Part shown: piece by piece, positions 8,090-30,866 of the stretch
Numbering within the stretch: the stretch's first letter is position 1
Layout of the letters: each line of letters opens with the position of its first letter
NCBI GenBank assembly: GCA_001858525.1
Contig: LAPX01000019.1
Location: forward strand, 1 to 64,000
Reading direction: 5' to 3'
Length of the DNA stretch: 64,000 nt
DNA from: Vampirovibrio chlorellavorus
Lineage (GTDB): Bacteria > Cyanobacteriota > Vampirovibrionia > Vampirovibrionales > Vampirovibrionaceae
Made by a program: the position numbers and the translations under genes
The notes under the pieces: generated by a model
The model's database searches: none
Told to the model about the DNA's origin: nothing
What the model saw: only the letters and a program-made list of their open reading frames with translations

Positions 8090-8090
8090 G

Positions 8091-13338: not shown

Positions 13339-14376
13339 TCAATATATAGCCTTGTCAGCAAAAACACCTCTGACACCACCCCGAGGGTTGACAACGTCGC
13401 CCTCTCTCCTGGGAATCAGATGAACATGGGCATGAAAAATGGTCTGTCCCGCCACTTCACCAATGTTTATACCGACATTAAACCCCTGAACCTTTGGGTC
13501 AAGCTTAGCAACCGTCTCTTTTTGCCCATCCAGCAGCGCCAGTATGGATTGGTGTTCCGGCTTATAGAGGTCAAACCAACCCGCCACATGGCGCTTTGGA
13601 ATTACCAAGGTGTGTAAATCCGAGACAGGATAAGCATCTCGGATAACGTAGGCTAGCGCCGTTTCAGTCACGACACGGTGATTCTCGATATGGCAAAAAA
13701 GGCACCCTGTCTCCCGGTGATTATAACTGGCCTTGATGCTGGCAAAATCAGTATCATCCCTGTCTCGTTTCTGCCGGTTGCACTGATAGCAAAGGGCCTG
13801 GAGGTTCGAAGGGTCATCCAAGCCCCCTTTGTTGCGTGGAACAATATGATCGATATCGATAGCACGCTCTTCGGATGACACCCCGCAGCATTCACAACGC
13901 CCCTTGGCTCTTTTGAGTATGTCATAGCGGATGCTTCCGGAAATATAGCCCTCTGCCATAAACCGATGCTCCCAAACGGCCATTTTGCGCTTTTGAACAT
14001 AGTCCAGAAGCTTCACGTTGCAGATGGAGATAAGTTCTAGGCGCTTATCTTCACTCAGTTGGGCAAAGGACTCTTCCAGGTAATAGTCTTTCCCGTCCTT
14101 CTTGACGATACCGTGCTTGCTGAGGACCTGGGCCGGGTAACGCTTGACGATTTGCTCGTAGTATTCGATCTGGCTTTCATCTTCGATGAGGAATGCCTTT
14201 GCGATATCTCGAATGCCTGCCTGCCCTCCGTTTTCTAATAAAGTGCGGATCATCAATGGCTGATAGACATGCGACATGCGCATTTTCTCAGTCAAAAACG
14301 TTTTAAGGGCTTCAAAACCAGGGTCAATCATCAAACGTGGTCCAGGCAGATTTTCCGTTATTGTAGAGTGCTCCAT
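13339..14376 (-). CDS. HNH endonuclease fused to HIT hydrolase
   Basis: 345-residue fusion. Residues about 1-140 are helical and unassigned. An HNH nuclease with zinc-binding CxxC pairs follows (CECC at about 157, DIDHIVPRNKGG, then CYQC near 195). The C-terminal 120 residues are a HIT nucleotide hydrolase/transferase with HAHVHLIP near 314-321, the histidine-triad signature. HIT enzymes act on AMP-linked or dinucleotide substrates. Joining one to a DNA-cutting HNH domain suggests an immune effector tied to a nucleotide signal or an adenylylated intermediate; that is inference. The gene is divergent from the RecQ-like gene with 107 bases between, so the two may share a control region. Confidence 0.85.
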   Translation of the reverse strand: MEHSTITENLPGPRLMIDPGFEALKTFLTEKMRMSHVYQPLMIRTLLENGGQAGIRDIAKAFLIEDESQIEYYEQIVKRYPAQVLSKHGIVKKDGKDYYLEESFAQLSEDKRLELISICNVKLLDYVQKRKMAVWEHRFMAEGYISGSIRYDILKRAKGRCECCGVSSEERAIDIDHIVPRNKGGLDDPSNLQALCYQCNRQKRDRDDTDFASIKASYNHRETGCLFCHIENHRVVTETALAYVIRDAYPVSDLHTLVIPKRHVAGWFDLYKPEHQSILALLDGQKETVAKLDPKVQGFNVGINIGEVAGQTIFHAHVHLIPRREGDVVNPRGGVRGVFADKAIY

Positions 14377-14483: not shown

Positions 14484-17400
14484 ATGAGCAGCATTAATTC
14501 AGGGTCTGTTTTTAAAAGGCATGCGTGGAAATTGGTCATTCATTGTTTTATGAGATTAACAAATTATCAAGCCGGTTATGCTCTTAACCCATTGTTTGGA
14601 AAGAACGATGCTCTTCTCAAGCATCTTTCCACATTCGCGATCCAGTCCTCCATTGATCTAAAGAGGCGATCAGAGGATTCTCTAATCTGTATCCTTCACA
14701 ATCTCCTGATTCGAGGGGTTCCCACTAAACCCAGCACTTTTATAGAGGATGCATTTGCCTCGACACTTCAAAAGACCGCATATACTGTTAACTCGATAGG
14801 GTCAATCCGGTATGAGCTTGTGGGAGAGGACACGAAAAGGTTTGACGATCTGTTGGGTAAGGCCATGCATATCATTGAGCCAAGACTTGTCCCTGAGAAT
14901 ATCAGCTACGATGGATATGACCACCAGTCCGAAAAACAATTCCGAGAAAAGTTACTGCCCAAAGCAATGGGGGCTTTTGCTTCGCAACTCATCGAGCCCC
15001 AGCGGGAGCTAGATGGCTTGTTGAATTTCGATTCCGAAAAAAAGGATCGCTACGAAAGTATCTTGGGAAGATATGCCGCCCGGTTCTACCGGCAGCAAGT
15101 CGATTTCACTCTCACCCAACCAGGCGAAAAGGGATTAGTTATAGAAATCGACGGCAAGCAGCACCAAAATCCCGATCAAAGGGAACTGGATTCCCGCCGC
15201 AGGGGGGCTCTAAAAAACAAAGGCTGGCAACTGGCAAGAATACCGGCGAATAAAGCCATTCCTGAGATGGAACTTGGAATCATCGGTCAGTCTCTCTCTC
15301 TGGCATATGCCGAGAAATGCAAAGAGAACTATCAAAACCCTATATGGGAAGAGCCGGAAGGTATGGATGCCCTGCAATACGCGCTCAGCCCTTTTGCCAT
15401 CTCTCGTATCCAGATGGCGCTTATCGCTCTTATTCAGACAGAAACCCTGAAGTTGAGTAGCAAGCGGTGGAGGATATGCGTCTTTGAGCGCGATGTGCCT
15501 TGCGCGCACCTGGCTATCGAGGATTTCAAGCAGCAATATAAAAACCTGATCGTTCTGACGGGTCGGAAAAAGGGACTGCCTGAAATCGAACTGACCGTCA
15601 TCACCACGCCAGAATTTCGTAAGGCTGGCTTGCACACTCTCTTCCAACCTATTCTGATTGACGAATTGCCAACCGGAACCAAAGCGGATGTCCTGATCGA
15701 CGTATCGATTCTGGAGAGAACCCATCTGACGGGAATCCCCGATGTCCTGCTGGAAAAGATTATCTCTCCTGCCAATCTGATCATTCGTTCTGCTTACCAG
15801 GCATCCGATGACAGAAGGTTTCTGTGCGCCAAGCCGGTCAAATACGCTTCCTTTCTTGAGAATTTCGAACGGCTGGACGTTTTGCGATACTTTTTGAAAA
15901 ATATCTTCCGAAAAAGCGATTTCAGGCCGGGGCAGCTTGAAATCATGGAAAGAGTCCTCCAGCAAAAAGATGTTATCGGATTGTTGCCAACGGGCGCCGG
16001 GAAATCGCTGACCTATCAGCTCGCTGCACTGCTGCAGCCAGGGATTACTCTCATTGTGGATCCCATTAAGGCGTTGATGTATGACCAGGTCGATAACCTG
16101 AAGCGCACCTCTATCGATGCTTGTTGCTTCATCAGTTCGGCATTGTCCAGGCCGCAGAGGCAGTATGTGGAAAAGTCCCTGGAAGAAGGCCGTTACCTTT
16201 TTGTATTTGTTTCTCCAGAACGACTTCAAATTCAGGAATTCAGAGAAACCTTACTCTCCCTGAAAGATCTGTACTTTTCCTATTGCGTCATAGATGAGGC
16301 CCATTGCGTGTCCGAATGGGGCCATGACTTCAGGACGGCATACTTGCGCCTTGCGGAAAACGCACGGAAATACTGCAAGCACTACTATTCACAAGTACCC
16401 ATGGCTGCTTTAACAGGAACAGCGTCTTTTGACGTTCTGGCCGATATCCAAAGAGAGCTTGGAATCGGCTCCGAAGGAGTCATTACGCCTCCCACGTATG
16501 AACGAAAAGAACTCAGTTTCCATATCCTTCCATGCAAGCCAGAGCAGGAAATCATGAACCTGCCCCAAAAAGAGGCGGTTGCCCTGGTCAAGAAGCAGAC
16601 ATTATCCACTCTCATCCGTTCCATTCCAAGTTATTTTGGAGAATCTCAAGATTTTTTTGAAGCCGTAGGAGAAGAAAGCAAGGCAGGACTTGTCTTTTGT
16701 CCACATGTAGGATGGGAATTTGGCGTAAACAAAGTCGCTAGTCATTTGAAGGAAACATTGCCGGAGCTAAACGGATCTATTGGCACCTTTGCAGGTAGTT
16801 TCGATTCCAACAGCCCGGACGGTACTTCCTCTCAGGAAATCCAGGATCACTTCAAGGATAATCGGCTCAATTTACTGGTAGCTACAAAAGCCTTTGGAAT
16901 GGGCGTAGATAAACCCAATATTCGTTATACCGTCCATTTCAACATGCCTCCATCCATTGAGTCCTTCTATCAGGAAGCGGGGCGTGCCGGAAGGGATCGC
17001 AAAGACTCTCATTGCTTCATTCTCTTTTCCGATACCAAAGTAGCAGAAGGCCGTTTCGGGGAAGTTACCGTTGATAAAGGACTTATGCTCAGTTTCCATC
17101 AGAACTCCTATCGGGGTGAGGCAAAAGAGATACGGATCTTAATGGATCTTTTGCACAATCCAATCCAAATCGATGGGGACAAGTACCCCAGCATCTGCAA
17201 TTTGCTGGATGGCATGTCGATTGATGAAGAAAAGGAGATGGTCATCCCTTACGAGAATGAGGCCATTGCCAATATTCTTTCTTATCTTCAAAGGGAAGTC
17301 CATAGTGAATTCAGAGAGGATCACCTTCAGGAAGCGATTCGCTATTGTCAAAGCGTTGGGGAAATGCTCACTAAAGCAAGAAGTAAACTGTACAAGGATA

Positions 17401-18269
17401 TCCAAATATGGTCTTTTGAAGACGATGAGCAGGAAACCCATGAGAAGGCATTAAACGATCTTTTCATATCGATCCGCCAAGACGCGGACATGTACAAAGC
17501 CATCTTCAGGCTCTCTTTGATAGGTCTGATTACCGATTATGTGGTGAACTACAATACAAGAACCATCACTGCAAAGATACGAAGGCGGAATCCTGACTAT
17601 TATATCTGGGCATTAACCGACTATATCTCAAGATATGTGTCCGTCCCTGAGGTTAAACGGACGCCAGGCAAGATTGAAGCCACTGAGGGGGATTCGATCT
17701 TGATCAAATGCGTCCATTATTTGGTCGGTTTTATCTATAGTAACATCGTCCGTAAGCGCGAAGAAGCGATCAACATTATGGAGCGGGCTATCGAGCATGC
17801 CATCTCCGGAGGCGATTTCAAGGAATACGTCAATTCCTATTTTGATTCCAAATACACGACTGTTCTTAGGCCTTGTCTTTATGATTACTCTCTGAAAACC
17901 GTTTGGGAAATGATCGAGGACATCAAGGGGGAACCGGACGGACTGAAGCATTTGCTCGGCGCAACCAACCGGCTGCTGGTGGAAAACCCTGATAACCCGG
18001 TATTGCTTTTATTGCGCGCGTTCGCCGCATTGGGTGTCGAAATCAACACCACAGCTAGCACCGGCGATTTTATCAAAGGCTGGCAGATCTCAAAAAGAGA
18101 TGAGCTTTCCAAATCCCTGTCAAAAGACATGAAACGCTTTTATACGTATTGTCTCCAATATCATGGCCTAGAAGTAGAAGAGCACTTAGGTGCGGAAATA
18201 TTGAAATTCCATTTGACCTGGCTTAAAGATTTCAACAAACAACAAACGGGAGCCCTAACTGATGCCTGA
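14484..18269 (+). CDS. PD-(D/E)XK nuclease fused to RecQ-family helicase
   Basis: 1261 residues. The N-terminal 270 contain a PD-(D/E)XK-type nuclease core with VIEIDGKQHQ near 220-229, followed by a basic helix as in Vsr/DUF559-like enzymes. The helicase core has FRPGQ (about 480), LPTGAGKS (Walker A, about 502-509), VIDEAHCVSEWGHDFR (motif II and the RecQ aromatic loop, about 604-619), TGTAS, and QEAGRAGRDR (motif VI, about 830-839). No HRDC domain is apparent; the last 400 residues are unassigned. The product should unwind 3'-tailed DNA and could cut it. The start is uncertain: a second ATG lies about 70 bases downstream. The 3' end overlaps the next gene by 8 bases. Confidence 0.85.
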   Translation: MSSINSGSVFKRHAWKLVIHCFMRLTNYQAGYALNPLFGKNDALLKHLSTFAIQSSIDLKRRSEDSLICILHNLLIRGVPTKPSTFIEDAFASTLQKTAYTVNSIGSIRYELVGEDTKRFDDLLGKAMHIIEPRLVPENISYDGYDHQSEKQFREKLLPKAMGAFASQLIEPQRELDGLLNFDSEKKDRYESILGRYAARFYRQQVDFTLTQPGEKGLVIEIDGKQHQNPDQRELDSRRRGALKNKGWQLARIPANKAIPEMELGIIGQSLSLAYAEKCKENYQNPIWEEPEGMDALQYALSPFAISRIQMALIALIQTETLKLSSKRWRICVFERDVPCAHLAIEDFKQQYKNLIVLTGRKKGLPEIELTVITTPEFRKAGLHTLFQPILIDELPTGTKADVLIDVSILERTHLTGIPDVLLEKIISPANLIIRSAYQASDDRRFLCAKPVKYASFLENFERLDVLRYFLKNIFRKSDFRPGQLEIMERVLQQKDVIGLLPTGAGKSLTYQLAALLQPGITLIVDPIKALMYDQVDNLKRTSIDACCFISSALSRPQRQYVEKSLEEGRYLFVFVSPERLQIQEFRETLLSLKDLYFSYCVIDEAHCVSEWGHDFRTAYLRLAENARKYCKHYYSQVPMAALTGTASFDVLADIQRELGIGSEGVITPPTYERKELSFHILPCKPEQEIMNLPQKEAVALVKKQTLSTLIRSIPSYFGESQDFFEAVGEESKAGLVFCPHVGWEFGVNKVASHLKETLPELNGSIGTFAGSFDSNSPDGTSSQEIQDHFKDNRLNLLVATKAFGMGVDKPNIRYTVHFNMPPSIESFYQEAGRAGRDRKDSHCFILFSDTKVAEGRFGEVTVDKGLMLSFHQNSYRGEAKEIRILMDLLHNPIQIDGDKYPSICNLLDGMSIDEEKEMVIPYENEAIANILSYLQREVHSEFREDHLQEAIRYCQSVGEMLTKARSKLYKDIQIWSFEDDEQETHEKALNDLFISIRQDADMYKAIFRLSLIGLITDYVVNYNTRTITAKIRRRNPDYYIWALTDYISRYVSVPEVKRTPGKIEATEGDSILIKCVHYLVGFIYSNIVRKREEAINIMERAIEHAISGGDFKEYVNSYFDSKYTTVLRPCLYDYSLKTVWEMIEDIKGEPDGLKHLLGATNRLLVENPDNPVLLLLRAFAALGVEINTTASTGDFIKGWQISKRDELSKSLSKDMKRFYTYCLQYHGLEVEEHLGAEILKFHLTWLKDFNKQQTGALTDA

Positions 18270-19575
18270 ACTACTCGAAATAAACACAGCCCTGATTGAG
18301 CTTGAAAAGGAACTGGAGAAACTACAAACCCAAAATAGCGCCCTTGAAGCTGCAAGGGACACTTCGATCAAGGTGATCCGCAAATATGAAGAAAATATGC
18401 AATCAAGCATCAACCTCATCAATAAGCTTGTAAGCAGTGTCGAAGACGAAAAAGGGTCTTTGTCCAAAGGGTCCCAAGAGATACTGTCGGCTGCGAACTT
18501 CGCTTCCCAGAGCATCCAAGTTTTGATCTCAGGCTTGCAAGGGCAGCAGGAGGCGTTTTCAACGACGCTTGTCAACGCAAGACAAGAGATCGAGGGTTTC
18601 GATCTCAAAGGGCAGCAGATCCAAATAGAAAAGCAAATCAAAGCACTGTCCGATTCATCCGAGAACTTCTCAAACACGGTGAACCAATTTCTTCAGGAAA
18701 TCGAGAGTATTAGCCAGAAGCATTCAGATAAAGTTATCGCCGATCAAAAGGGCTATATCGAGACCGAACTCAAGGGTATACGACAAGCCGTAGGAGAGAT
18801 GGAAACTACGTTGCATGAACGGATAATATCAGAACTGGGATCGGTTTCTGGTACGCTTGCCAACCAAAAAGAGTATGTAGATAAAATATCCGCCGATCAA
18901 AAACACTTAATCGAGTCTGAAGGTAGGATGCTTCAACAATCTGTTGAAAAAATAGGAACGTCGCTAAAGACCGAACTGGGCTTGGTTTCTGATGTGCTTG
19001 CCAACCAAAAAGAGTATGTAGATAAAATATCCGCCGATCAAAAGCACTTAATTGAGTCTGAAGGTAGGATGCTTCAACAATCTGTTGAAAAAATAGGAAC
19101 GTCGCTAAAGACCGAACTGGGCTTGGTTTCTGATGCGCTTGCCAACCAGAAAGAGCAATTCGATCATCAGATTGAGCAGTTGAACGAAATGAGAAACTCA
19201 ATAAGTGATAACCTCAATGCTTTTGGAAAGAATGTCGAGGCTACACTAACATCTCATAATGTCGCTCTGGTGGACGAAAACAAACGCTTGCTCCAGGAAA
19301 AGGTGGTGATTCTGCAAGAGCATATCGCCGAACAGGATAAGAAACTAGAAAGCCATATCCATGCTGAGGTAGTTGAAGTCAAATATGAGCTTGGCAAATC
19401 GATTCAAGAATCCCAAAAAGTATCAAGCGAGGGCATTTCGGAATTGAAAAACACTCTCTCACAAACCGAAACCCAGCTTAAGGAAGAACTAAAAAGTCAG
19501 ACAAAGATGCAAAACATCCTGCTGGGCATCATTGTTTTGCAACTGATCCTGATGGTAGCTTTCCGGTTCATGTAA
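18262..19575 (+). CDS. long coiled-coil protein with C-terminal membrane anchor
   Basis: 437 residues, almost entirely heptad-patterned coiled coil and rich in Glu, Gln, Lys and Ser. It ends in a single hydrophobic segment (about 415-435) that would anchor it in the inner membrane with the coil in the cytoplasm. A 47-residue unit is repeated nearly identically in the middle. It overlaps the RecQ-like gene by 8 bases, which argues for joint function. The layout recalls membrane-anchored sensor or effector coils in some defence systems, but I see no ZorA-type motor motifs. Function unknown. Confidence 0.8.
   Translation: MPELLEINTALIELEKELEKLQTQNSALEAARDTSIKVIRKYEENMQSSINLINKLVSSVEDEKGSLSKGSQEILSAANFASQSIQVLISGLQGQQEAFSTTLVNARQEIEGFDLKGQQIQIEKQIKALSDSSENFSNTVNQFLQEIESISQKHSDKVIADQKGYIETELKGIRQAVGEMETTLHERIISELGSVSGTLANQKEYVDKISADQKHLIESEGRMLQQSVEKIGTSLKTELGLVSDVLANQKEYVDKISADQKHLIESEGRMLQQSVEKIGTSLKTELGLVSDALANQKEQFDHQIEQLNEMRNSISDNLNAFGKNVEATLTSHNVALVDENKRLLQEKVVILQEHIAEQDKKLESHIHAEVVEVKYELGKSIQESQKVSSEGISELKNTLSQTETQLKEELKSQTKMQNILLGIIVLQLILMVAFRFM
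18855..19155 (+). repeat. 141-bp tandem repeat inside coiled-coil gene
   Basis: Two nearly identical 141-bp units (18855-18995 and 18996-19136) and the start of a third (19137 on). Each encodes 47 residues, so the frame is kept. Differences are only a few bases, which points to recent duplication. The unit is a multiple of neither 7 nor 3.5 residues (47 = 6.7 heptads), so a stutter or skip is expected at each junction. Confidence 0.9.
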
Positions 19576-19634: not shown

Positions 19635-20105
19635 ATGAAACTTAACTTTTCCATATTGCTCACATCCATTATCTTCTACTTGGCTCCGGCTTATGGAGAG
19701 GTGGTTTGCTCCATCCATGACGGAGATACGTTTAGAGTGGCCAAGAAGGATTGCAATAAGGAAGAAACTCGCTCCATCAGGCTTTGGGGAGTTGACAGCC
19801 CTGAATTGAGGCAGGAGTATGGTAGGGAATCCAAAGAATTTGTGACCAAACTGGTTAACGATAGGGAGGTGCGTCTTGATTGCGTGGGTAAGAGTTACAA
19901 AAGATTTGTTTGCCGTGTTGCCGTCATTGCTGGGGAAAGATCGCTGGATCTTGGGACGGAACTGGTGGGCTGGGGCCTGGCTTATGATGCGGTACGCTAT
20001 TCAGGGGGAGCGTATACATCAGCAGAACGGTTTGCCCAGAGAATGAACCGAGGTGTTTGGCAGCAACCTGAAGGGGGTGTTAGGCCCTGGGAATATCGCA
20101 AATAA
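19635..20105 (+). CDS. secreted thermonuclease-like nuclease
   Basis: 156 residues with an N-terminal signal peptide (hydrophobic core to about residue 20, cleavage near AYG-E) and an SNase/TNase OB-fold. The active-site residues are visible: DGDTFR supplies the calcium-binding Asp, RLWGVDSPE the first Arg and nearby acid, and a later RFVCRV the second Arg. Such exported, calcium-dependent, non-specific nucleases are common beside conjugation genes. It follows the coiled-coil gene by 59 bases on the same strand and is convergent with traM. It may belong to the conjugative backbone rather than to the RecQ module. Confidence 0.88.
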   Translation: MKLNFSILLTSIIFYLAPAYGEVVCSIHDGDTFRVAKKDCNKEETRSIRLWGVDSPELRQEYGRESKEFVTKLVNDREVRLDCVGKSYKRFVCRVAVIAGERSLDLGTELVGWGLAYDAVRYSGGAYTSAERFAQRMNRGVWQQPEGGVRPWEYRK

Positions 20106-20194: not shown

Positions 20195-20626
20195 TCAGTT
20201 AAGAAAAAATGTTTTGAACATTATTCCCAAGACGAAAAAGCTGCAAGCTGTAATAGTATATACACCCCAATCACTGCTGCTGGTCATTTTGTGCCAAGCT
20301 TTATCTTTATATTGTAGGTTCTCAACATCAATTTCAGTTGTAAATTTATTGGTTACTTTAGGGGCATTCTCAGCTAAAGTTTGGCTTAAGGCTTCTAATG
20401 ACCGATTGACCATTTCGCTACCCATGGCAGATGCTTGGTTTAGTCTCTCTATCCCCTGAGATACCACCAGTTTATTTTGTTCCTCCAGCAAGGCTTGAAA
20501 CTTTTCCAGATATTGAGAAAGAAGCAGTTCATTCAGCGTAACCGCCACAAAAACCGGATCATCTGGCTTTAAGGTAATCTGGTGTTTTTTCTGAATTTCC
20601 TGTATTAGAACTTGCGTTTCCATCAT
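20195..20626 (-). CDS. traM: TraM-like conjugation protein
   Basis: 143 residues: a helical cytoplasmic part and one C-terminal membrane segment (about 122-141). By position it is the RP4 TraM counterpart, the third gene of the leftward traK-traL-traM set, 4 bases after the traL stop. Sequence similarity alone would not have been enough; the name rests on gene order, size and the C-terminal membrane helix. It is expected to improve transfer frequency and is not essential for nicking. Confidence 0.6.
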   Translation of the reverse strand: MMETQVLIQEIQKKHQITLKPDDPVFVAVTLNELLLSQYLEKFQALLEEQNKLVVSQGIERLNQASAMGSEMVNRSLEALSQTLAENAPKVTNKFTTEIDVENLQYKDKAWHKMTSSSDWGVYTITACSFFVLGIMFKTFFLN

Positions 20627-20630
20627 GAGC

Positions 20631-21356
20631 TTATACTGCTACCGCATCCATTTGTTCAAATAGGTTACGCTTAACCATCGTCAGGCGTTGCTTGGCCATC
20701 AACTCAAAGATGGGGTTTTCTTTCACTTCGGCGAAGGTGGCCCGATGCGCCAGCATCATTTCCACATCCTGGCCAAACGTGGATGATGTTTGGCGGGGAA
20801 TCCGGATTAGCCCGCTAATCCGGCTTTTATGCCTAGTGTACACTTTCATTTCTTCAAACGTTTTGCCCTCTTCACTGGCAATGGGGCCAAAGTATTCATT
20901 CAGCCAGACCATTAAATTGGCTTTCTCTGGTAAGTGTTCCGCCAATTTGCTAAATCCAGTCAGGGTATCCCGTAAACCTTGAGAGCCACTGATTAAGGTA
21001 TGAATATAGACTTCTTTCCCGTTGTCTGAAAGCAAGTTAATCACATCATTTTCCAGCAAATAATTGGAAAGCGGCAAAAACGAAGCCGCCCCATTATCAA
21101 TGACAAAATGACTATCTTGCTCAATCAACAGGGTCATCATTTGGTCAAACTTACGAGGGTTCAACTCATTCCCGTCCATCAACTCCAAGCGTTGAACATT
21201 GAAGGCTTTATAGCCTGAAAACGTAGCGTTTACGGGATCGGTATCAATGCAAATTACCTCCCGATCCTGCTCTTGGTGGTACTGGGCTAGCAAAGAGGCC
21301 ACGAAAGTTTTCCCAACCCCGCCTTTGCCCTGCAGTATAAAGTGCACTCGTTTCAT
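20631..21356 (-). CDS. traL: TraL, ParA/MinD-like conjugation ATPase
   Basis: 241 residues, the same length as I recall for RP4 TraL, with a deviant Walker A at the N-terminus (LQGKGGVGKTFVASLLAQY, about 8-26) and ICIDTDP as the A' motif. TraL proteins are ParA-superfamily ATPases of the IncP Tra1 region whose role in transfer is modest and poorly defined. The gene sits between traK and traM, all leftward from oriT. A chromosome-partition ParA is the alternative, but no parB partner is present. Confidence 0.85.
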   Translation of the reverse strand: MKRVHFILQGKGGVGKTFVASLLAQYHQEQDREVICIDTDPVNATFSGYKAFNVQRLELMDGNELNPRKFDQMMTLLIEQDSHFVIDNGAASFLPLSNYLLENDVINLLSDNGKEVYIHTLISGSQGLRDTLTGFSKLAEHLPEKANLMVWLNEYFGPIASEEGKTFEEMKVYTRHKSRISGLIRIPRQTSSTFGQDVEMMLAHRATFAEVKENPIFELMAKQRLTMVKRNLFEQMDAVAV

Positions 21357-21386: not shown

Positions 21387-21722
21387 TCAAAATAACTCGC
21401 TATCCGCTAAAGGGGTGGGATCGTTTAAGCCCTTCTTGGGTGTCACAGTTGGTGAAGTATATTTTGAGGGCCTTGCCTCAGTTTTGGTACTCTGCTCATT
21501 CGAGAGAGGTGCTTCGGTATTGGGCTTATTAACAGGGTCCCCAGTAATATATTTGCCCACGTAGCGGGTAAATTGGGTGTATGCGATTCCGAGCTTGTCT
21601 TTTCGTTTTTCATAGATTTGGGTTAACGGATAACCCGCTTCAATTTCCTGCTGAATCTCTGCAAAATGCGCCTTGAACGTGATGCGTCCCAGGCCATAGT
21701 GGCCCTTCGTTGTTTGGTTCAT
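21387..21722 (-). CDS. traK: TraK, oriT-binding relaxosome protein
   Basis: 111 residues. The N-terminal 60 match the TraK pattern (GRITFKAHFAEIQQEI, ITQxY-like LTQIYEKR, then YTQFTRYVGKYI), a helix-turn-helix-like DNA-binding region; the remainder is a polar tail. In RP4, TraK binds and bends the DNA on its own side of nic. Here the matching side carries a helically phased TGCA array. Ribosome site AGAGGG precedes the ATG at 21722. Confidence 0.85.
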   Translation of the reverse strand: MNQTTKGHYGLGRITFKAHFAEIQQEIEAGYPLTQIYEKRKDKLGIAYTQFTRYVGKYITGDPVNKPNTEAPLSNEQSTKTEARPSKYTSPTVTPKKGLNDPTPLADSELF

Positions 21723-21773: not shown

Positions 21774-21802
21774 CGATAGCACGGGACTCATTCTTTTGAC
21801 AA
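21774..21802 (-). promoter_or_regulatory. predicted traK promoter
   Basis: On the minus strand TTGTCA (21802-21797) is followed after 17 bases by CTATCG (21779-21774), preceded by TG as in an extended -10. It reads toward traK, whose ATG is about 50 bases downstream. It overlaps the start of the TGCA array, so TraK could autoregulate; that is inference. Confidence 0.5.
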
Positions 21803-21806
21803 GTTT

Positions 21807-21934
21807 TGCATAGATTTGCATAGTTTGACCTTCTTGAGAATGCAAAACTCCGAAAAACTATGCAAAACAGTGCAATACAATGCAAACGTTGCATGAAAAA
21901 GGCCGGTGTGACATGAATATTGCATACTTTTGCA
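21807..21934. repeat. helically phased TGCA array in oriT
   Basis: TGCA tetranucleotides, mostly within ATGCAAA or TTTGCAT, occur at 21807, 21817, 21841, 21861, 21871, 21881, 21890, 21921 and 21931. Spacings are multiples of about 10 bases, one DNA turn, within each cluster. The array lies between traK and nic. It probably represents repeated relaxosome-protein sites on one face of the helix, or intrinsically bent DNA. Confidence 0.75.
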
Positions 21935-21949
21935 CAGATTTTCATAAAT

Positions 21950-21982
21950 AAAAATGGCAGGACAGGTATTGTAGGCCTACAA
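21950..21982 (-). other. oriT: oriT nic region, IncP type
   Basis: Minus strand reads GGCCTAC, three bases, ACCTGTCCTG, then CC. This aligns base for base in spacing with the RP4 nic region (GGCCTAC-N3-ACCTATCCTG/CC), with one change in the last block. The predicted cut on the minus strand is between 21958 and 21957. The perfect 14-bp palindrome TTGTAGGCCTACAA (21969-21982) abuts it and may be the TraJ site. The 5' end produced leads leftward, through traK-traL-traM and the defence genes; traJ, traI and traG enter last. Confidence 0.85.
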
Positions 21983-22097: not shown

Positions 22098-22451
22098 ATG
22101 GCAGATCGGGAGATCCGGGATCGTCTGCATCCCATTAAAGTCTATGTTTCCGCCAGTGAGCGGGTGAAAATTGAACACCGGGCAAGCGCTGTCAAGTTGG
22201 CCCCTAGTGCGTTTATGCGTTCTCTGGCCTTGGGCTTTGAACCGAAAAGTGCCTTTGATAAAGTCGCCATTACAACACTCATCAAACTTCATGCGGATCA
22301 GGGCCGATTGGGTGGCTTGCTCAAGCTTTGGCTAACGGACAGGAAAGGGGATGGCCTGAATGCCAGTAACGTGCGTTCGGTGCTTCAGCAAATAGAATCA
22401 CTTCAGATTGAATTGGCGCAGATTGTGATGGCGGAGAAAAAGCGCTTATGA
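22098..22451 (+). CDS. traJ: TraJ, oriT-recognition relaxosome accessory
   Basis: 117 residues with a ribbon-helix-helix-like N-terminus (IKVYVSASERVKIEHRA, then LAPSAFMRSLALG) typical of TraJ/MobC accessory proteins that bind beside nic and recruit the relaxase. Good ribosome site AGGGGA before the ATG. The stop overlaps the traI start by 4 bases (ATGA at 22448-22451). Rightward counterpart to the leftward traK set, with oriT between them as in RP4. Confidence 0.88.
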   Translation: MADREIRDRLHPIKVYVSASERVKIEHRASAVKLAPSAFMRSLALGFEPKSAFDKVAITTLIKLHADQGRLGGLLKLWLTDRKGDGLNASNVRSVLQQIESLQIELAQIVMAEKKRL

Positions 22452-24409
22452 TTTCCAAGCGTATTGACCGGAAACTGAAAACCTCCGATTTTGACCGCTT
22501 GGGCCGCTATGTGCTGGAGGCCAAGAACGATGCGGCCACCATTTTGTGGACCCGTACCGCTGAATACGTGGTGGACTTAAAAGCAGAGACCGAAGGCGAG
22601 AAGGTGCTTTGGTATCGACTTTCCAATTGTGAGGCTGAAATTCCGGCAATGGCCATTGCCGAAGTGCTGGTCACTCAGTCTCAAAATACACGTTCTCAAG
22701 CGGATAAGACCTATCATTGTGTGATTTCATTTCCTGAGGGTGAGCAGCCCTCCCGAGCTCAATTGGAAGATATCGAAGACCAGATGTGCGAAGCCCTTGG
22801 CTTGGCGGAACACCAGCGGATTAGCGCGGTGCATCAGGATACGGATAATATTCATCTGCATTTGGCCATCAACAAGGTACATCCGGCTACATTCAAGCTC
22901 CATGAGCCTTATCGGGATTACTATGTCCGGGATAAGACTTGTCGAGCGCTGGAACTCAAACACGGATTAACCGTGGATAACGGCATGGGTCAGGGGCAAC
23001 GCTACGGCAAAGCCCAAGTCTTGGAGGCCCATACTGGGGAGCGAACCTTACTGGGCTGGATTCAGACGGAAGCCAAACCGGCCTTGGTTCAAGCAGTACA
23101 AGAGGAGAAAAACTGGGATGCGCTACACCAGGTTATGGCTGAGCATGGCTTGATAATTAAACCGCGTGGGGCTGGGTTGGTCATAACCTTGGCCGATGGG
23201 TCCATGGGGGTTAAAGCCAGTTCTGTTGATCAAAGTCTGTCCTTTAAAAGTTTGACTGAACGCTTTGGGGTGTATGTTCCCCCTGAAAACGTTCAATCGC
23301 CTGTGACCAAACAGGAAAACCCTAAAATGACTTACCAGAAAGGGCCAAAGCAGACGGATGAAGCAGCGCAAGAACTTTATACGAGTTTTCAATCTCAAAA
23401 ACAATCGGCTTGGCTGGCCAAAAGCCAACTCAAAGAACGCCTGGCAACTGAGAAAGAACGATTTGCCCAGCATTTAAAAGTCTGGCATGCTCAGGAACGA
23501 TTGAAAATTAAGCAATCCAGCCTGACTTCACAAGCCAAACGGCTGGCCTACCAGCAATTGGCGCAAAATCGCGAATCGGCATTGCAAGCGCAGCGCGAAA
23601 CAGTAAAACGCCAAAAACAGAATTTAAAAGCCTTGCGACCCGCGCCGACATGGGAAGAATTCCTGATTCAGCAAGCGGAACAAGGAAGTAGCAAGGCGCT
23701 TGAGCTACTACGCCATCGGAAAGCCAAGCAAGCTAACTTTGAAAAGGCCTTATTAACTGCGGATGACCTGACGCAAGCCAAGCAACTTATCTATCAGGAT
23801 TTGAAGCCCTTCATTCGTAAAAACGGCGATCTGATATACCAAGTCCAGGACGGGGGGGCTGTGACCGATGAGAAGCAATGGGTATCGGTCAGCACTGTAA
23901 CGACGGGATCAGCTATTTTGGCCCTCACAATAGCAGCTGAGCGCTTTCAAAATCATCCCCTGGATGTGCAGGGCAGCCCTGAATTCAAACGGCAAATTGT
24001 GCAGCTGGCCGCTCAACACAACATGGCGGTGACCTTCAAAGATGGAGCGCTGGAGCAAGAGCGTCAGCAGCTCATTCAGGGGCAACAAGCATCTCTGCGA
24101 CCAGAAAGCTCTATTTTACCTGCCTTGCAAGCTTATATCACCGAGCGAAATCGGATGCGGAAACGGGTTAACGATCTAAAACCCCATCGGGCCTGGACGG
24201 CTCAAGATGCAGGTCCTGTAACTTATCAGGGGCGGCGCACCTTAACGGACGGCACTGAAGCCGTGCTACTTGAAACCCAAGAAGCCATGTTGGTGAAACC
24301 CGTTCAGCGCTCAGAGGACTTTCAGAAAATTGCCGTGGGGCAGACGGTTCAATTGGATGAAAAAGGCCAATGGCAGCGCTCAAGCCAACTGAAAGGACGA
24401 GGGCGATGA
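22448..24409 (+). CDS. traI: TraI, MOBP relaxase
   Basis: 653 residues. The N-terminal relaxase has a likely nicking Tyr21 (DFDRLGRYV) and the metal-site motif HQDTDNIHLHLAIN at about 129-142, the MOBP three-histidine form. The middle region is charged coiled coil (about 300-420), followed by a C-terminal domain with NDLKPHRAW and YQGRRTLTDG seen in TraI/LPD-type tails. The relaxase cuts oriT on the minus strand, stays on the 5' end and is exported through TraG and the Trb channel. Coupled to traJ and traG by 4-base overlaps. Confidence 0.93.
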   Translation: MISKRIDRKLKTSDFDRLGRYVLEAKNDAATILWTRTAEYVVDLKAETEGEKVLWYRLSNCEAEIPAMAIAEVLVTQSQNTRSQADKTYHCVISFPEGEQPSRAQLEDIEDQMCEALGLAEHQRISAVHQDTDNIHLHLAINKVHPATFKLHEPYRDYYVRDKTCRALELKHGLTVDNGMGQGQRYGKAQVLEAHTGERTLLGWIQTEAKPALVQAVQEEKNWDALHQVMAEHGLIIKPRGAGLVITLADGSMGVKASSVDQSLSFKSLTERFGVYVPPENVQSPVTKQENPKMTYQKGPKQTDEAAQELYTSFQSQKQSAWLAKSQLKERLATEKERFAQHLKVWHAQERLKIKQSSLTSQAKRLAYQQLAQNRESALQAQRETVKRQKQNLKALRPAPTWEEFLIQQAEQGSSKALELLRHRKAKQANFEKALLTADDLTQAKQLIYQDLKPFIRKNGDLIYQVQDGGAVTDEKQWVSVSTVTTGSAILALTIAAERFQNHPLDVQGSPEFKRQIVQLAAQHNMAVTFKDGALEQERQQLIQGQQASLRPESSILPALQAYITERNRMRKRVNDLKPHRAWTAQDAGPVTYQGRRTLTDGTEAVLLETQEAMLVKPVQRSEDFQKIAVGQTVQLDEKGQWQRSSQLKGRGR

Positions 24410-26331
24410 GCAAAGCAGATCCCAAAACTCAGACTTCCCTGGATTTGACGATTATGGCCGTGGTCATGATTCTAGCCAGTACGGGAGCCACACAATTTGT
24501 GGCTGAGCGATTCCACTATAATCCAGCGTTTGGGAATCCCTGGTTTGACCGTTTTTATGCCCCTTGGAATTGGCTGGTTTGGCAGAATCAGTTTGCCAGC
24601 AGTGGCCCTCAAACGTTTTCAGTGGTCAACGTGTTCTTGCTGTTGACACTGGGAATCACTATTTTTTCGTACTTTACGCTGTTGAATCTCCGGGCACGGA
24701 ATCCTCAAGGTCACCAAGACGTGCATGGCACGGCCCATTTTGCCACCCAAGCAGAGATTGAAGACACTGGTCTACTGCCAAACCCACAGGAACCCAACGC
24801 CGGGGTTTATGTGGGCGGTTGGACAGATCAGAAAAAGCGGCTCCATTATCTGCGCCACAATGGCCCTGAGCATATTGCAGCCATTGCCCCCACAAGATCT
24901 GGGAAGGGCGTAGGCCTGGTTGTTCCCACCTTGCTGGCTTGGCCGCATTCGGTGGTGGTCAATGACATGAAGGCGGAACTTTGGAATCTAACGGCGGGTT
25001 ATCGAAAACATGAGTTGAACGGCACGGTTTTGAAATTTGACCCCGCTTCCGAGACTGGCAGTTGTGCTTTTAACCCGTTGGATGAAGTACGTCTTGGCGT
25101 GACCGAAGTGGGGGATGTGCAGAACCTGGCCAATATCATTGTCGATCCCGATGGGAAAGGCTTGGTGGATCACTGGGCCAAAACCGCGCATGCGTTTTTG
25201 ACCGGTCTCATCTTACATTTGATTTACCAGACCGGCAAAAAAGCCAGCTTATCGGATGTGGCCTATGCCATTTCTGATCCCACCCGGCCCATTGATGCCC
25301 TCTATGAGGAGATGGTGAATAACCGGCACAGCAGCCAAACCGCTCGACAAGTGGTGGCTTCAGCGGGTCAAGATATGCTCAACCGGCCAGAGCAGGAACG
25401 GGGCTCGGTGCTTTCTTCCGCTCAGGCCTTTTTGACCATTTACCGGGATCCACTGGTTGCCAAGAATATCAGCCGCAGTGATTTTTCCATTCATGATCTG
25501 ATGCACCAAAAGCATCCGGTTTCACTTTACCTGGTGGTTCGCCCGGCAGACAAAGATCGATTGAAGCCCCTAATGCGCCTGATTTTGAATCAGATTGTGC
25601 GCGTTTTGACCCGAGATGAGCAAAAATTTGAAGGCGGCCAGCCCGCCAAATCCTATGAACAGCGCCTGCTGTTAATGCTGGATGAGTTCCCCACCTTTGG
25701 CCGTCTGGAAGTGTTTCAGGAAGCCTTGGCGTTCATTGCAGGGTATGGCATGAAAGCCTATCTCATCATGCAGGATATCGCCCAACTTCAAGCCGCATAC
25801 GGGCAAAATGAAAGCATTCTTGCCAACTGTCATATTCGGGTGGCCTATGCGCCTAATAACGTACTAACGGCAGAATGGTTATCTAAGCTGTTGGGACAAG
25901 CCACGGTGGTGAAAGAGGACTACACCAGTTCGGGAAAACGCTCTGGGGGGATGCTGGGGCAAGTCAGCCGTTCGTTTCATTCGTTGGGCCGCCCATTGAT
26001 GACGCCGGATGAGGTGATGCGTTTAAAAGCGCCTAGAAAAGACCGGCTGGGCAATATTGAAAATCCTGGGGAAATGCTGGTTTTTGCGGCAGGCCACGCG
26101 CCAATTCAGGGGACTCAAATTCTGTATTTCCGCGATCCCTGGTTTAAAGAGGCTGCCAAAATTGCCCCACCCAAGCATTCCGATACAATCTTGGATACCA
26201 GGCAAATCAGGCTTAAACATATGGGCAATTTGGCGTCTTCAAGTGGCAGTTCTACAAGCCCTGCTCCCAAGCATCGGGTCCAGCCTGTGTTATTGGAGCG
26301 GATCCAACAACCGCCAACCCAAGCCCGATGA
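24406..26331 (+). CDS. traG: TraG, type IV coupling ATPase (VirD4 family)
   Basis: About 641 residues from the ATG at 24406, which has a ribosome site (AAGGA...GAGGG) and overlaps the traI stop; the open frame extends 12 codons further upstream. Two N-terminal membrane segments (about 14-35 and 65-85) are followed by the cytoplasmic ATPase with Walker A PTRSGKGVG (about 165) and Walker B LLMLDEFPTFG. It links the relaxosome at oriT to the Trb mating channel and pumps the DNA. Ends with a 4-base overlap with traF. Confidence 0.93.
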   Translation: MSKADPKTQTSLDLTIMAVVMILASTGATQFVAERFHYNPAFGNPWFDRFYAPWNWLVWQNQFASSGPQTFSVVNVFLLLTLGITIFSYFTLLNLRARNPQGHQDVHGTAHFATQAEIEDTGLLPNPQEPNAGVYVGGWTDQKKRLHYLRHNGPEHIAAIAPTRSGKGVGLVVPTLLAWPHSVVVNDMKAELWNLTAGYRKHELNGTVLKFDPASETGSCAFNPLDEVRLGVTEVGDVQNLANIIVDPDGKGLVDHWAKTAHAFLTGLILHLIYQTGKKASLSDVAYAISDPTRPIDALYEEMVNNRHSSQTARQVVASAGQDMLNRPEQERGSVLSSAQAFLTIYRDPLVAKNISRSDFSIHDLMHQKHPVSLYLVVRPADKDRLKPLMRLILNQIVRVLTRDEQKFEGGQPAKSYEQRLLLMLDEFPTFGRLEVFQEALAFIAGYGMKAYLIMQDIAQLQAAYGQNESILANCHIRVAYAPNNVLTAEWLSKLLGQATVVKEDYTSSGKRSGGMLGQVSRSFHSLGRPLMTPDEVMRLKAPRKDRLGNIENPGEMLVFAAGHAPIQGTQILYFRDPWFKEAAKIAPPKHSDTILDTRQIRLKHMGNLASSSGSSTSPAPKHRVQPVLLERIQQPPTQAR

Positions 26332-26879
26332 GAACGCTATTGATCCGGTATTTTAGTGGGGTTGCCCTCATTGGGAGCCTGTTATGGGTGTTCTATGCTC
26401 AGGGCTATCGGATTATTACCACGCCTTCTGTTCCACCAGGCGTATGGAAAGTTGAACCAATCCATGGCCCTATTCGGCAGGGACAGTTTGTCTGGCTTTG
26501 CCCGCCAGATACACAGCTTTTTCGATTAGCCAAGCAACGTGGTTATATTCCAGAAGGTGAGTGTCCTGGTGGTTACAGGCACTTATTGAAGCCTGTCGCG
26601 GCAGTCACAAGTGATAAAATTCTTATCAAAAAATCCGGAATTTTCGTGAATGGTGAGTTTATTCAAAACAGCCAAGTTCTCAAAAGGGATCAGAAGGGTC
26701 AGCCATTACCACAGGCTATATCGACTCAATATATGGTTCAGCCTGGCTTTATATGGGTAATTTCTCCTTTTGATTTAAAAAGTTTCGATAGCCGATACTT
26801 TCATGGGGTATCTACTACTCAGCTTAAAGGTATTGCCAGGCCAGTGTTGATCTTTAATGACGTGCACCCTTCAATCTAA
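26328..26879 (+). CDS. traF: TraF, conjugative pilin-processing peptidase
   Basis: 183 residues, S26 (signal-peptidase-like) fold: one N-terminal membrane helix, then the catalytic Ser in TTPSVPPGVW (about 33) and a general-base Lys in the HLLKPVAAV segment (about 87). In RP4, TraF trims and cyclises the TrbC pilin; a trbC gene is present at 47894. Start overlaps the traG stop (ATGA). Its last 9 bases overlap, tail to tail, the AT-rich gene on the other strand, which marks the right border of the Tra1 block here. Confidence 0.88.
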   Translation: MRTLLIRYFSGVALIGSLLWVFYAQGYRIITTPSVPPGVWKVEPIHGPIRQGQFVWLCPPDTQLFRLAKQRGYIPEGECPGGYRHLLKPVAAVTSDKILIKKSGIFVNGEFIQNSQVLKRDQKGQPLPQAISTQYMVQPGFIWVISPFDLKSFDSRYFHGVSTTQLKGIARPVLIFNDVHPSI

Positions 26880-29800
26880 ATATCTCTCACGCTGCCAGTT
26901 TAGCAAAAGAGTCATGACTTGAATTTTTGTAAATTCTATTTTTCGGAATCTAAAGGATATTAGCTTCTTAATAATTTTTAGAATCAAAGGTTCATAATTA
27001 AAAATATATGGAAGCTCAAGTTGCCATACTTTCTCATTTTTTAGTAGTTCATCAAGTTCATTCTTAATTTTGAAAATACCTTTGGATTTGATTCCATCCA
27101 TCAGCTTATTAAGTGAAAAGCTGAGAATTTCCTCTTTTTTCTCAACTGAAATATTTTGTTTCCACAGCTCAAAGAGGAATTGCGTTAAAACTCCAATACT
27201 GGATGTAATAGTGGTTTTCTCAGAAAAAATAATACCAGCAACTTTTTCAAAAACACCTTCGCATTTCCAGTCAGTTCTTCTGCAACTTTCAAGAATTGGT
27301 AACCAATTTAAAGATACGTAGTCATAACCAAGTTCTATCAAGCGTAAGACATAGTTAGAGAATTCGTCATTAGTGAGATGTTCACTTCTATGCATATCAA
27401 AAAGCAGGATCTGTACCCAAACCCCCGAAGTTTTGTAAGTGTGAAAAGCAATCTCGCGTAGTCTTTGATCATCAGAGCATAGAATATGATTAGGCTCCTT
27501 CGCTAGAACCATACAATCAAAAAAGCATCTTCCTATAGCTTCTCTAAACTCTTCTCTAATATTCTTATCAATTTCAAAATAGCCATACATTGGTTCTAAA
27601 GAACAGTTTCTCTTGATCCAGTTACACAATCCCTCAAGTGATTCAATTTCTTTTTGGATTTGCTCTGGACGTATTTCGTATCTGATGTACTGTTCGCCTT
27701 CCTTGTTAATAGTTATGTACCCACTTTCCAATGTCCATCGAGCTTCAATAATGTGCTCTTTGATTGTTTGTATAGTAGACCAAGGAGTTGCTAATTTTTC
27801 ATAGCATTGCTTAACCTTTTCAAGGATTCCTAATTCTTGCATAGTTAGCAAGGAAATTAAATCGAGGACAAGAGTTTTATCCTTATTCTGAATAACTTTG
27901 AGAGCATAATTTCTCTCATTTTCATTCCCTGTTGTTGAAATCAACAAGCGATCAGGTTTACCAACCAAGCCTCCCCATGCCTGAATTGGATTTAGCCCAA
28001 GATTCTCAGCTAATGAACCAATCGTAATGAATGGCCCCGTATTATAAATGCTTACAGCTTGGTTGATATTATCTGTTCTGGCGTCAATTCGCTCTAATAT
28101 TGGTTTCAAGTTATCAAGGGTACTATTTTCTGGATTGTTAGGTATTTCAACTAACTGTATTTCATTATTGGCTGGGAAGAACTCTTGATATCTTCCAACG
28201 CTTTCCTGATAGGCAAACAGATACTTGTGTTTTATCTCTAAAATCTTGGTTCCATCTGATGTTAAATCGCCAGCAACTTTACCAAAAATCTCTTTAAATA
28301 AAGGATGTTGCTCATTAATTTCCTTGAAACGTATATCTGTTTTGGATCTATCCTCTAGTATCAGCCAATCAGATTTACCTGTAGGGTATTCTACTTGCAC
28401 TGCTGTATCTGGCTCTACTTTTTCTCTTTTAAGCAGAGATTCTATATTTCGGGCTTGCTCATTAAATAGGCCAGCATATTTTAGATGGGCTTGTGGTTCA
28501 TTAAAATATGTTCTTCGCAACTCATAAAGAACCTGAAAGGCCTTCTCTAAAAAGCCTCGTTCCTTCAGCAGGAAAACATATAACAATCCATTATCAAATG
28601 AAGTTTTCTCATCAAATGCAAAGCTACGGCGTAGGAATTCATCAAGATCTGAAAAACATTCTAGCTGTATATTTAAAACAGCATTTCTAACCAGGATTTT
28701 AAAGTTAGAGGGTTGCTCAGCCAGAATCTGTTGATAGATCTGTTTGGCCTTTTCATAATCTCCCACTTTTTCAAACAGATTACCCTCAAGCTCAGCAGCA
28801 TACTCTACAATCCCACAGTTTTCCCTCAGCATTTTACAGATCACAAGAGCTTTACTTTCTTTGCCATCGAGAAGATAGCTATAGATAAGCTTTCTTGAGA
28901 TAAAAGTATCCCTGACTATGGGGTTTAGTTCCTCTAATAAAGGAGCAGATTTATCATACCTTTTAAGCTCATACCAGAGCATGGCCAAGTCCAGCTTCAG
29001 ACGAGCTGGTGCAGTACCCCCCAGTAGTGATTCTGCTTCTTCAAGTAACTTAGTTGCTTCTTCTTGATTGTTTTCCTCTGCAAAAACCCTTGCTCTGCCT
29101 GCCAAACTATCTACGTCTCTACATCTTTCAAGCGCTTGTTCCGCCTGTTCAGCAGCAGAATTCAGATCTCCTTTATCAATCAGAATATGGATCAATAATC
29201 TCTGTGCATCAAATCTATTATCTTCATCAGTAGTAAAGTCAGATTTATATATTTCCTTTTCCGCCTCTTCATGCCGCCCTTGAAATCGCAGTGTTTCAGC
29301 AAGCATAATGTGAGCTTCAAAGGACATCTCATCATCAGGAATCTGCCTTAAGAATCTCTCTGCCTCCACAAAATTATTCATGTCCAGCGCCAATAAAGCT
29401 CTTAACCTTAGAGCATCTATTTTTTGTTCTTTAGCAGGATACTTATCCACTGGAAGATTTTCCGTGACTGCAAAATATTTTTTAAAATCAAGAACAGCCG
29501 CCTCATACTCCCTTAAAATTCTGAGGCCATTTGCTTTATTAATCAGTAAATATGCTTTTGCTTGGTATAACTCTGGATCATCAGAAATCTGAGATAGAAG
29601 ATTATCAACTAACTGGTTGGCAGTTCTTATTTTTTCCTCAACTTCTACATTCTGCACCCCAAAATGTGAAAGTGTTGCCTTTTTAAAGGACCATTCATAC
29701 AAGGCCTGAGCATAGTATAGTTTTAGCTTATACGAGTTACTTGCTTGTACCGCCGTTTCCATCCAGACAATGCATAATTCAATATTGCCTTTTCTCCTCG

Positions 29801-30866
29801 CAACTTCTGCGATACCAAGAGCAACTCCGGGCTCACTTTTTTTATCTTCAGGAATGGGGCTTATAATTTCATCTATGCTCTTCTCTGGATATGCTTGAAC
29901 TAAAACCTGGTATGCAACTTCATCGCAAGGATCAACTGCGATCGCTTTTTCTGCATATAATCCGGCCTCTTTTGCATTGCCCTGTATAATCAAAGCCAAA
30001 GCTTTTAGTTTATTTGCACTTTTGTGATTAGGATTATTCTCATAAGCTTTCAAAAAATACGTTGCACATTCTTGCTGTTGATGTAATTCGTTAGCAATAT
30101 CTCCAAGGTAGTAGTAATATCGGAATTTCTCGTTATCACTGGATAACCCTAGGAAGTTTCCCTCAAATTGTTTTAGTTTTTTAGAAGCCTCATTTACTTT
30201 GTCAGAGTTTAGGTTATCTCTAATTTCATTTAGCAATTTGGAGGCTTCTGTGTCTGCCTGCTGCTTCTCAGGCTCTATTTCTGAAATGCCTCTTACAAAG
30301 CTAAATGTTTCATCATAGACTTTGAGAATAGGCTCACATCGTTGCACTTCACTTTGAGCAAGTTCTTGGGTCTTGAATTTCTTATAGATTCTACTTGAGA
30401 TCTTCGTTGCTGTGTCCAGATACTGTGGATAGAATAAAAGCGCTACTTCTGGATGCGTATCGACTAGCTCTTCGATATCGTCCCAACTATAAATCAGGAT
30501 TCTAAAAAAACCTTTATCCTGATATTCTCTGCTTAACTTCGCAACATAATCCTGAGTATCGGGATCTCTTCCAGCCGTGGTAGCAAAGATAAGTTCCTTT
30601 AAAGGAGGATCATGCTCTTGGGCTTTCACAGCATCCGCTTTTATATCTGCATTGGTTAACTTTTCACTTTTACTTCTTACTTTGCATTGTATTGCATGCC
30701 TTTCCCGTCCGCCCTCAGGATATCCTATGATATCAATTCCCTTCTGGCCTTTAGGATTTGTACTATATTTCTGTGCATGAGGATCATTCCAGACTTTTTT
30801 CCAGAGGGCTAGACAAAAGCTTTCAAACTCTTCATCATTTTGTGGGGGAGGTAACTTTTTATACAT
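26871..30866 (-). CDS. Mrr-like nuclease / TPR / PIN-like protein
   Basis: 1331 residues. N-terminal 150: restriction-endonuclease-like PD-(D/E)XK fold with QKGIDIIGYPEGG (about 43-55) and HAIQCKV (about 60-66), giving D and Q-x-K active-site residues. Middle, about 200-760: many helical TPR-type repeats (for example AKEAGLYAEKAIAVDPCDEV). C-terminal third: PIN-like segment with VLDLISLL and HILCSDDQRLREIA, supplying spaced acidic residues. Two nuclease-type ends joined by a TPR sensor suggests a single-gene defence effector; that is inference. The gene is markedly AT-rich compared with the tra genes and has no partner, pointing to separate acquisition. Confidence 0.75.
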   Translation of the reverse strand: MYKKLPPPQNDEEFESFCLALWKKVWNDPHAQKYSTNPKGQKGIDIIGYPEGGRERHAIQCKVRSKSEKLTNADIKADAVKAQEHDPPLKELIFATTAGRDPDTQDYVAKLSREYQDKGFFRILIYSWDDIEELVDTHPEVALLFYPQYLDTATKISSRIYKKFKTQELAQSEVQRCEPILKVYDETFSFVRGISEIEPEKQQADTEASKLLNEIRDNLNSDKVNEASKKLKQFEGNFLGLSSDNEKFRYYYYLGDIANELHQQQECATYFLKAYENNPNHKSANKLKALALIIQGNAKEAGLYAEKAIAVDPCDEVAYQVLVQAYPEKSIDEIISPIPEDKKSEPGVALGIAEVARRKGNIELCIVWMETAVQASNSYKLKLYYAQALYEWSFKKATLSHFGVQNVEVEEKIRTANQLVDNLLSQISDDPELYQAKAYLLINKANGLRILREYEAAVLDFKKYFAVTENLPVDKYPAKEQKIDALRLRALLALDMNNFVEAERFLRQIPDDEMSFEAHIMLAETLRFQGRHEEAEKEIYKSDFTTDEDNRFDAQRLLIHILIDKGDLNSAAEQAEQALERCRDVDSLAGRARVFAEENNQEEATKLLEEAESLLGGTAPARLKLDLAMLWYELKRYDKSAPLLEELNPIVRDTFISRKLIYSYLLDGKESKALVICKMLRENCGIVEYAAELEGNLFEKVGDYEKAKQIYQQILAEQPSNFKILVRNAVLNIQLECFSDLDEFLRRSFAFDEKTSFDNGLLYVFLLKERGFLEKAFQVLYELRRTYFNEPQAHLKYAGLFNEQARNIESLLKREKVEPDTAVQVEYPTGKSDWLILEDRSKTDIRFKEINEQHPLFKEIFGKVAGDLTSDGTKILEIKHKYLFAYQESVGRYQEFFPANNEIQLVEIPNNPENSTLDNLKPILERIDARTDNINQAVSIYNTGPFITIGSLAENLGLNPIQAWGGLVGKPDRLLISTTGNENERNYALKVIQNKDKTLVLDLISLLTMQELGILEKVKQCYEKLATPWSTIQTIKEHIIEARWTLESGYITINKEGEQYIRYEIRPEQIQKEIESLEGLCNWIKRNCSLEPMYGYFEIDKNIREEFREAIGRCFFDCMVLAKEPNHILCSDDQRLREIAFHTYKTSGVWVQILLFDMHRSEHLTNDEFSNYVLRLIELGYDYVSLNWLPILESCRRTDWKCEGVFEKVAGIIFSEKTTITSSIGVLTQFLFELWKQNISVEKKEEILSFSLNKLMDGIKSKGIFKIKNELDELLKNEKVWQLELPYIFNYEPLILKIIKKLISFRFRKIEFTKIQVMTLLLNWQRERYLD

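Follow-up and report, generated by a model that had tools for sequence, protein, structure and literature searches.

We find that positions 21956-21977 of the window, by which we mean the 64,000 nucleotides of Vampirovibrio chlorellavorus DNA analysed here (C13:1-64000, from a contig of 108,064 bp), are most probably the nic region of an IncP-like oriT (MOBP, TraI-type) belonging to an ICE that carries variable cargo in its leading arm, a reading to which we assign a probability of about 0.85. TraJ and TraK would bind beside nic, and TraI would cut the minus strand between 21958 and 21957, stay on the 5' end and lead the DNA out. Entry would begin with traK, traL and traM and continue with a helicase-nuclease operon, the HIT-HNH and EVE genes, the Hma operon and, across an IS, DUF3768, umuC, umuD, the integrase and attL, with the traI side entering last; the defence genes along this path would make up the variable cargo of a hot spot in the leading arm. 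On this reading, a mating element of a non-photosynthetic, predatory (on algae) cyanobacterial lineage would now have its origin, direction and borders fixed.

Positions 21950-21982 read aaaaatggcaggacaggtattgtaggcctacaa, the complement of which contains GGCCTACAATACCTGTCCTG immediately followed by CCATTTTT. Read from 21977 to 21956, the minus strand is GGCCTACAATACCTGTCCTGCC, an IncP-type nic region consisting of GGCCTACAATACCTGTCCTG plus CC; the strand carries GGCCTACAATACCTGTCCTG before and CCATT after the predicted cut, with the nic-type G at 21958 and C at 21957. The reference was the nic 22-mer GGCCTACTTCACCTATCCTGCC of the IncP-1alpha plasmid pBS228, whose oriT was located with an IncP-1alpha query that matched the record at 100%. 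The window sequence differs from this 22-mer by 4 mismatches (18/22 bases the same), and nowhere else in the window is there a match with up to 6. Among 300 Markov-1 control sequences of 64 kb the closest match had 5 mismatches, and of 20,000 simulated intergenic regions between traK and traJ none reached 4. A nucleotide-level comparison of the oriT region with plasmids returned a chance-level match only.

The surroundings of nic were compared among four elements: the ICE of the window, the V. chlorellavorus contigs C2 and C1, and the ICE of a genus relative (G009), which carry relaxases of the same type (identities to that of the window of 56%, 55% and 82%, respectively). The core AATACCTGTCCTGCC is identical and in the same place in all four. 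Adjoining nic is a perfect inverted repeat (21970-21981), which is TGTAGGCCTACA in both ICEs, TGTTGGCCAACA in C2 and TGTACGGGTACA in C1; its pairing is retained in these relatives despite changes on both sides, with five outer pairs kept in C1. A traJ-II RNA (Rfam RF01760; 21955-22054, plus strand, E=1.8e-5) overlaps nic and lies upstream of traJ, an arrangement found in 4/4 elements. On the leading (traK) side of nic, 21789-21946 is A+T-rich and filled with an array of TTTTGCATA-like repeats, both direct and inverted, which we infer, by analogy with RP4 (PMC7314908), to be the TraK-binding region.

Around this site, the nic consensus on one strand is flanked by divergent traK and traJ. To its left, on the minus strand, are a traK-position gene of 111 aa (21387-21722; DUF5338, weak; order as in pBS228), traL (20631-21356; NCBIfam TraL, E=1.7e-93, 313 bits versus a curated cut-off of 360) and traM (20195-20626; NCBIfam TraM, E=6.5e-10, 39 bits versus 139). 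To its right, on the plus strand, are traJ, NikA-like (22098-22451; NCBIfam TraJ, E=7.3e-25, 88 bits versus 134), traI, encoding a MOBP relaxase of 653 aa (22448-24409; NF041893, 458 bits, above the curated TraI/MobA(P) cut-off of 250), and genes for a traG-type coupling protein (24370-26331) and a traF-type S26 signal peptidase (26328-26879). The order traM-L-K (minus), nic, traJ-I-G (plus) matches that of pBS228. Since TraJ, TraL and TraM fall below the curated IncP cut-offs, being related to but not IncP proteins proper, we regard this as an IncP-like relaxosome and not as an IncP plasmid. No replication initiator was found among the subset of C13 ORFs that was scanned with regard to an IncP replicon (trfA/oriV). 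The likeness to IncP-1 (RP4/RK2, pBS228) thus comprises 18 of the 22 nic bases, the inverted repeat beside nic, the order and orientation of traK-L-M, oriT and traJ-I-G, and the MOBP TraI. Unlike IncP-1, however, the present element is integrated at a tRNA gene in a host of the Cyanobacteriota, and its leading arm is filled with defence cargo, with no kfr/kor-type leading genes seen.

The original prediction had named an IncP-type nic at this place, a cut on the minus strand at 21958/21957, and transfer in which traK-L-M and the islands of 1-20 kb go first and traI last. The first claim is borne out by the 4-mismatch match, the poorer controls, the conservation in four elements and the overlap with traJ-II; the coordinates of the second are right, the cut itself being predicted by homology, and the precedent of RP4 (PMC7314908) supports the direction. 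It had also placed 1-20 kb in the leading region, and the borders of the element, which we checked, do not put this segment far from the leading end. Integration is at tRNA-Glu(TTC): an att core, TTCGAATTCCCCTGGGGGTACCA, occurs at C11:11109-11131, within the tRNA-Glu gene, and at C13:72998-73020, these being the only two copies genome-wide. The latter copy is attR, and attL lies on contig C11 together with the integrase, which is 98% identical to that of G009. Window positions 1-62 hold one end of an IS that is 2.36 kb long (a complete copy lies at C1:24094-26450), and contig C11 closes with its other end; the right end of C11 and the left end of C13 are thus the two ends of one IS in consistent orientation, the simplest view being that a repeat has separated two adjacent contigs. 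From these IS ends and the logic of the att sites we infer that C11 and C13 join, and the leading arm would therefore extend leftward from nic over 1-22 kb of the window, continue for about 7 kb in C11 and reach attL. The alternative of C13 as a closed circle was rejected, its ends showing no overlap.

The arrangement that depends on this join in the window element is found on a single contig in G009, where tRNA-Glu, the integrase and both att copies flank 52 kb. Its order is tRNA-Glu(TTC), with the 3' end repeated as the att core, integrase, leading cargo, traM-L-K/oriT/traJ-I-G-F, and, after traF, cargo, the ArdC-TOPRIM protein, T4SS, cargo, efflux genes and the second att copy. With an integrase at a tRNA gene, flanking direct repeats, a relaxase and a T4SS, the window element, given the C11-C13 join, has the features of an ICE. 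Conjugative plasmids of about 72 and 50 kb, and a third T4SS on an unclosed contig, were previously reported from V. chlorellavorus (Soo et al. 2015, PMC4451040); the two plasmids correspond to C1 (71,965 bp) and C2 (50,153 bp), which belong to the same genome and share the nic core, traJ-II and a T4SS of the same type. Our analysis goes beyond that account, which put the third T4SS on a contig and not on a plasmid, by assigning it to an ICE inserted at tRNA-Glu; the passages considered do not describe oriT, borders or cargo.

To the right of attR stands a sequence resembling the left end of the ICE itself (together with attR, C13:72998-73100, that is L005:12998-13100), with 94% identity to G009 and 88% to the strain's own C11, which suggests a tandem or accreted second element. 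The far end of this putative element was not found, no second att core was present right of 73.1 kb with up to 7 mismatches allowed, and a search for the chromosomal right flank by synteny with G009 found nothing. Heavy-metal P-type ATPase/RND efflux cargo is common to the region right of the ICE (C13:73.3-83.2 kb) and to the 50-kb plasmid (C2:23.4-34.1 kb).

Because the transferred strand (T-strand) corresponds to the minus strand of the window, only plus-strand genes are readable from it, and the genes of the leading arm divide accordingly. Those for which the T-strand is template are an SNase-family nuclease gene (19635-20105), a two-gene defence-like operon (14484-19575), encoding a 1261-aa DpdF/PsyrT-like protein with a DEAD/DEAH helicase and an REase-like domain and a 437-aa protein weakly resembling ZorA, a gene for a 126-aa orphan ending in the SSB-like tip DDDLPF (313-693), and, on C11, DUF3768, umuC and umuD. 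The C11 part of the arm reads DUF3768 (plus), umuC (plus), a group II intron (plus), umuD (plus) and integrase (minus). Lying on the minus strand, like traK-L-M, are the genes for an EVE-domain protein and an HNH-HIT protein (12753-14376) and the Hma defence operon (789-12745, 0.8-12.7 kb), which comprises HmaA, DUF3644/HEC-08, HmaB, HmaC and a WD40 protein, with HmaA, HmaB and HmaC all present (PADLOC, 1626, 1201 and 1021 bits). For the SSB-tail orphan no family or homologue was found in Pfam, NCBIfam, PDB or plasmids, and no OB fold was detectable; P0001 had no solved relative by sequence. The HNH-HIT protein (13339-14376) is an unusual defence-like fusion beside the EVE gene, its HNH domain being closest to IscB/Cas9d HNH models.

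Early expression of leading-region genes is known (PMC11541004, PMC9849209), and the original prediction had taken the leading position of the defence genes to suggest it here. A strong form of this idea, that the leading defence islands are functional by position and expressed at once in the new host, appears unlikely to us, despite the location of the islands within the first ~20 kb, the T-strand-templated orientation of the helicase operon, SNase and SSB-tail genes, and the zygotic induction of leading operons in RP4. In that plasmid, leading operons for which the transfer strand is template mostly show 7-16-fold increases, against changes of only 2-3-fold for traK-L-M (PMC7314908), and an anti-CRISPR of F gives much weaker protection from the complementary strand (PMC11541004). 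Here, however, Hma, EVE and HIT-HNH are read the other way, as are all the leading defence genes of G009 (type I R-M, a GmrSD-like protein and a Lamassu/ABC-3C-like set, with DUF3768 on the plus strand). Furthermore, single-strand promoters, which had been proposed as something to look for in the 1-20 kb genes, were not found in the window: DNA folding upstream of its plus-strand genes yielded no Frpo-like hairpin clearly beyond shuffles, and structural models R1 and R2 (of the element discussed below) had no match in the window or the rest of C13. Early expression of the largest defence set, Hma, is consequently not supported, and as most leading defence genes are on the minus strand, they would be expressed only after second-strand synthesis; the helicase-nuclease operon, the SNase and the SSB-tail gene are possible early genes. 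A leading position is thus insufficient for inferring early expression, and strand must be checked.

The literature on leading regions also differs from what we observe in content. The anti-defence islands described by Samuel et al. 2024 (PMC11541004) resemble the present arm in having umuDC near the far boundary, umu genes being the terminating boundary of such islands, as well as small leading genes and structured intergenic elements. Yet those islands are anti-defence, whereas the genes of the window are mainly defence systems, many in the non-template orientation, and the arm does not form an anti-defence island read from the T-strand; a look through the window yielded no ardA, psiB or ssb. 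Only one protein with a clear anti-restriction domain was detected there; this ArdC-zincin-DUF5710-TOPRIM polyvalent protein (36309-38528, minus strand), is backbone conserved in 4/4 elements on the trailing side and may, by analogy with translocated plasmid primases, be delivered as protein.

Defence genes are, moreover, as conspicuous in the trailing cargo, and the comparable load of that arm, which includes toxin-antitoxin pairs, further argues against a function of the leading islands by position. One trailing hot spot (26871-35482) contains a TPR-PIN-GreABC protein with an Mrr-like domain, HipA, AAA-DUF4143 and an unknown protein of 420 aa, and another (49715-57229) contains two AbiE pairs, an HTH/Gp49 pair and HipBA; these lie on either side of the ArdC-TOPRIM gene and the trb-type T4SS block (38809-49233, minus strand), which is conserved backbone. 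Both arms likewise carry defence in G009, with LmuA/LmuB in the trailing arm, although two elements are too few for an enrichment test of leading against trailing defence. The two ICEs share conserved backbone blocks and differ in cargo, from which we take defence genes to be markers of hot spots for cargo in either arm around oriT. The defence genes of the leading arm would enter a new cell early. The TPR-PIN-GreABC protein (26871-30866, 1331 aa), whose Mrr-like nuclease domain is N-terminal, had no PADLOC match.

A shade less likely again than immediate expression is that the element has lost its mobility and what resembles nic is only a decayed remnant. There is an IS within the leading arm, and the second left-end-like sequence (C13:73021-73100) does point to a complex history, but the nic core, traJ-II and the relaxase frame are intact, with TraI open over its full 653 aa, the T4SS block is collinear with that of G009, and the integrases of the two elements are nearly identical. 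Finally, that the nic match arose by chance and the real oriT lies elsewhere is scarcely credible: the 12-base core alone would be expected 0.37 times per window at one mismatch, for which reason we rejected any significance drawn from it, but what makes nic significant is the greater length of the match, where it lies, and the compensatory changes that accompany its conservation in four elements, together with the traJ-II overlap. We retain the reading of an IncP-like nic in an ICE.

Nic and ICE are of a known kind, and the part of these results most worth following is a structured element outside the window. If any early transcription occurs from the entering strand, it would most likely start here, at the far leading end, where a non-coding element of about 118 nt precedes DUF3768 (toward oriT) in both ICEs and in plasmid C1; in C2 the copy precedes a 173-aa ORF, after which comes a DUF3768-like ORF, and each ICE has a further copy, in inverted orientation, on the integrase side. 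The copies are at L045 (C11):17318-17435 and 12796-12913, L016:12697-12814 and 13038-13155, L019:16133-16250, L020:11996-12111 and L058:576-692. In an alignment of six copies, 28 pairs show 94.6% paired cells and 8 pairs are changed on both sides, compared with a mean of 4.1 in controls by shuffling and 0-2 by sliding; folding relative to shuffles is modest in several Vampirovibrio copies (z -0.2 to -2.9). A covariance search recovered the element in V. chlorellavorus (C11, C2, C1 and C18) and in G009 (on the ICE), and in both genomes all copies found are on or close to mobile elements; none was found in the other 8 family genomes or, under stricter filters, in other genomes of a 386-genome phylum sample. 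No Rfam identity was found for the element, nor, in the literature searched, any account of DUF3768 on plasmids.

A near-invariant core, CAAGGGTAAAGGCTnCGCCC, lies in a covarying stem, and Burkholderia savannae pMSMB0852 and B. glumae bglu_4p carry this core in that stem too, in very stable hairpins (z ~ -11) beside DNA methyltransferase genes, the bglu_4p copy also being upstream of mobF. With E from 9e-10 to 0.011, model R2 matched Xanthomonas pXap41, Anaerococcus pAPRE01, Salmonella pRSE40, Bradyrhizobium and pIPO2 plasmids, yet as the plasmids of both sets were preselected through a BLAST match to the core, only the added stem is independent evidence, and the R2 scores of the two Burkholderia sequences, which helped to build the model, are not independent. 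Weak blastn matches of the element to plasmids and phages were meaningful only with the covariance model.

Like the Frpo/ssi sites of F and ColIb-P9, the element is conserved structured intergenic DNA in the leading arm before genes read toward oriT. However, no recognisable relation in sequence or structure to F Frpo1/2 was detected, the models not recovering them (no match at E<=10 for R1 or E<=5 for R2), and matches of R2 upstream of the ard genes of ColIb-P9 and F were weak and not significant (E 0.4-0.6). We regard the element before DUF3768 as a candidate Frpo/ssi-type site, with a primer site for second-strand synthesis an equal possibility. It supplies a candidate start point for early expression, with a core shared by plasmids of other phyla. 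We suggest tentatively, and at somewhat less than even odds, that it represents an unnamed, widespread family of single-strand switches (promoter or primer) in conjugative elements of Vampirovibrio, alpha-, beta- and gammaproteobacteria and Bacillota; if so, early expression from entering DNA would extend well beyond enterobacterial plasmids. The Salmonella pRSE40 copy is upstream of DUF932, near mobA/traI. On C11, the group II intron (L045:13646-15985), which carries a reverse transcriptase, is situated between umuD and umuC.
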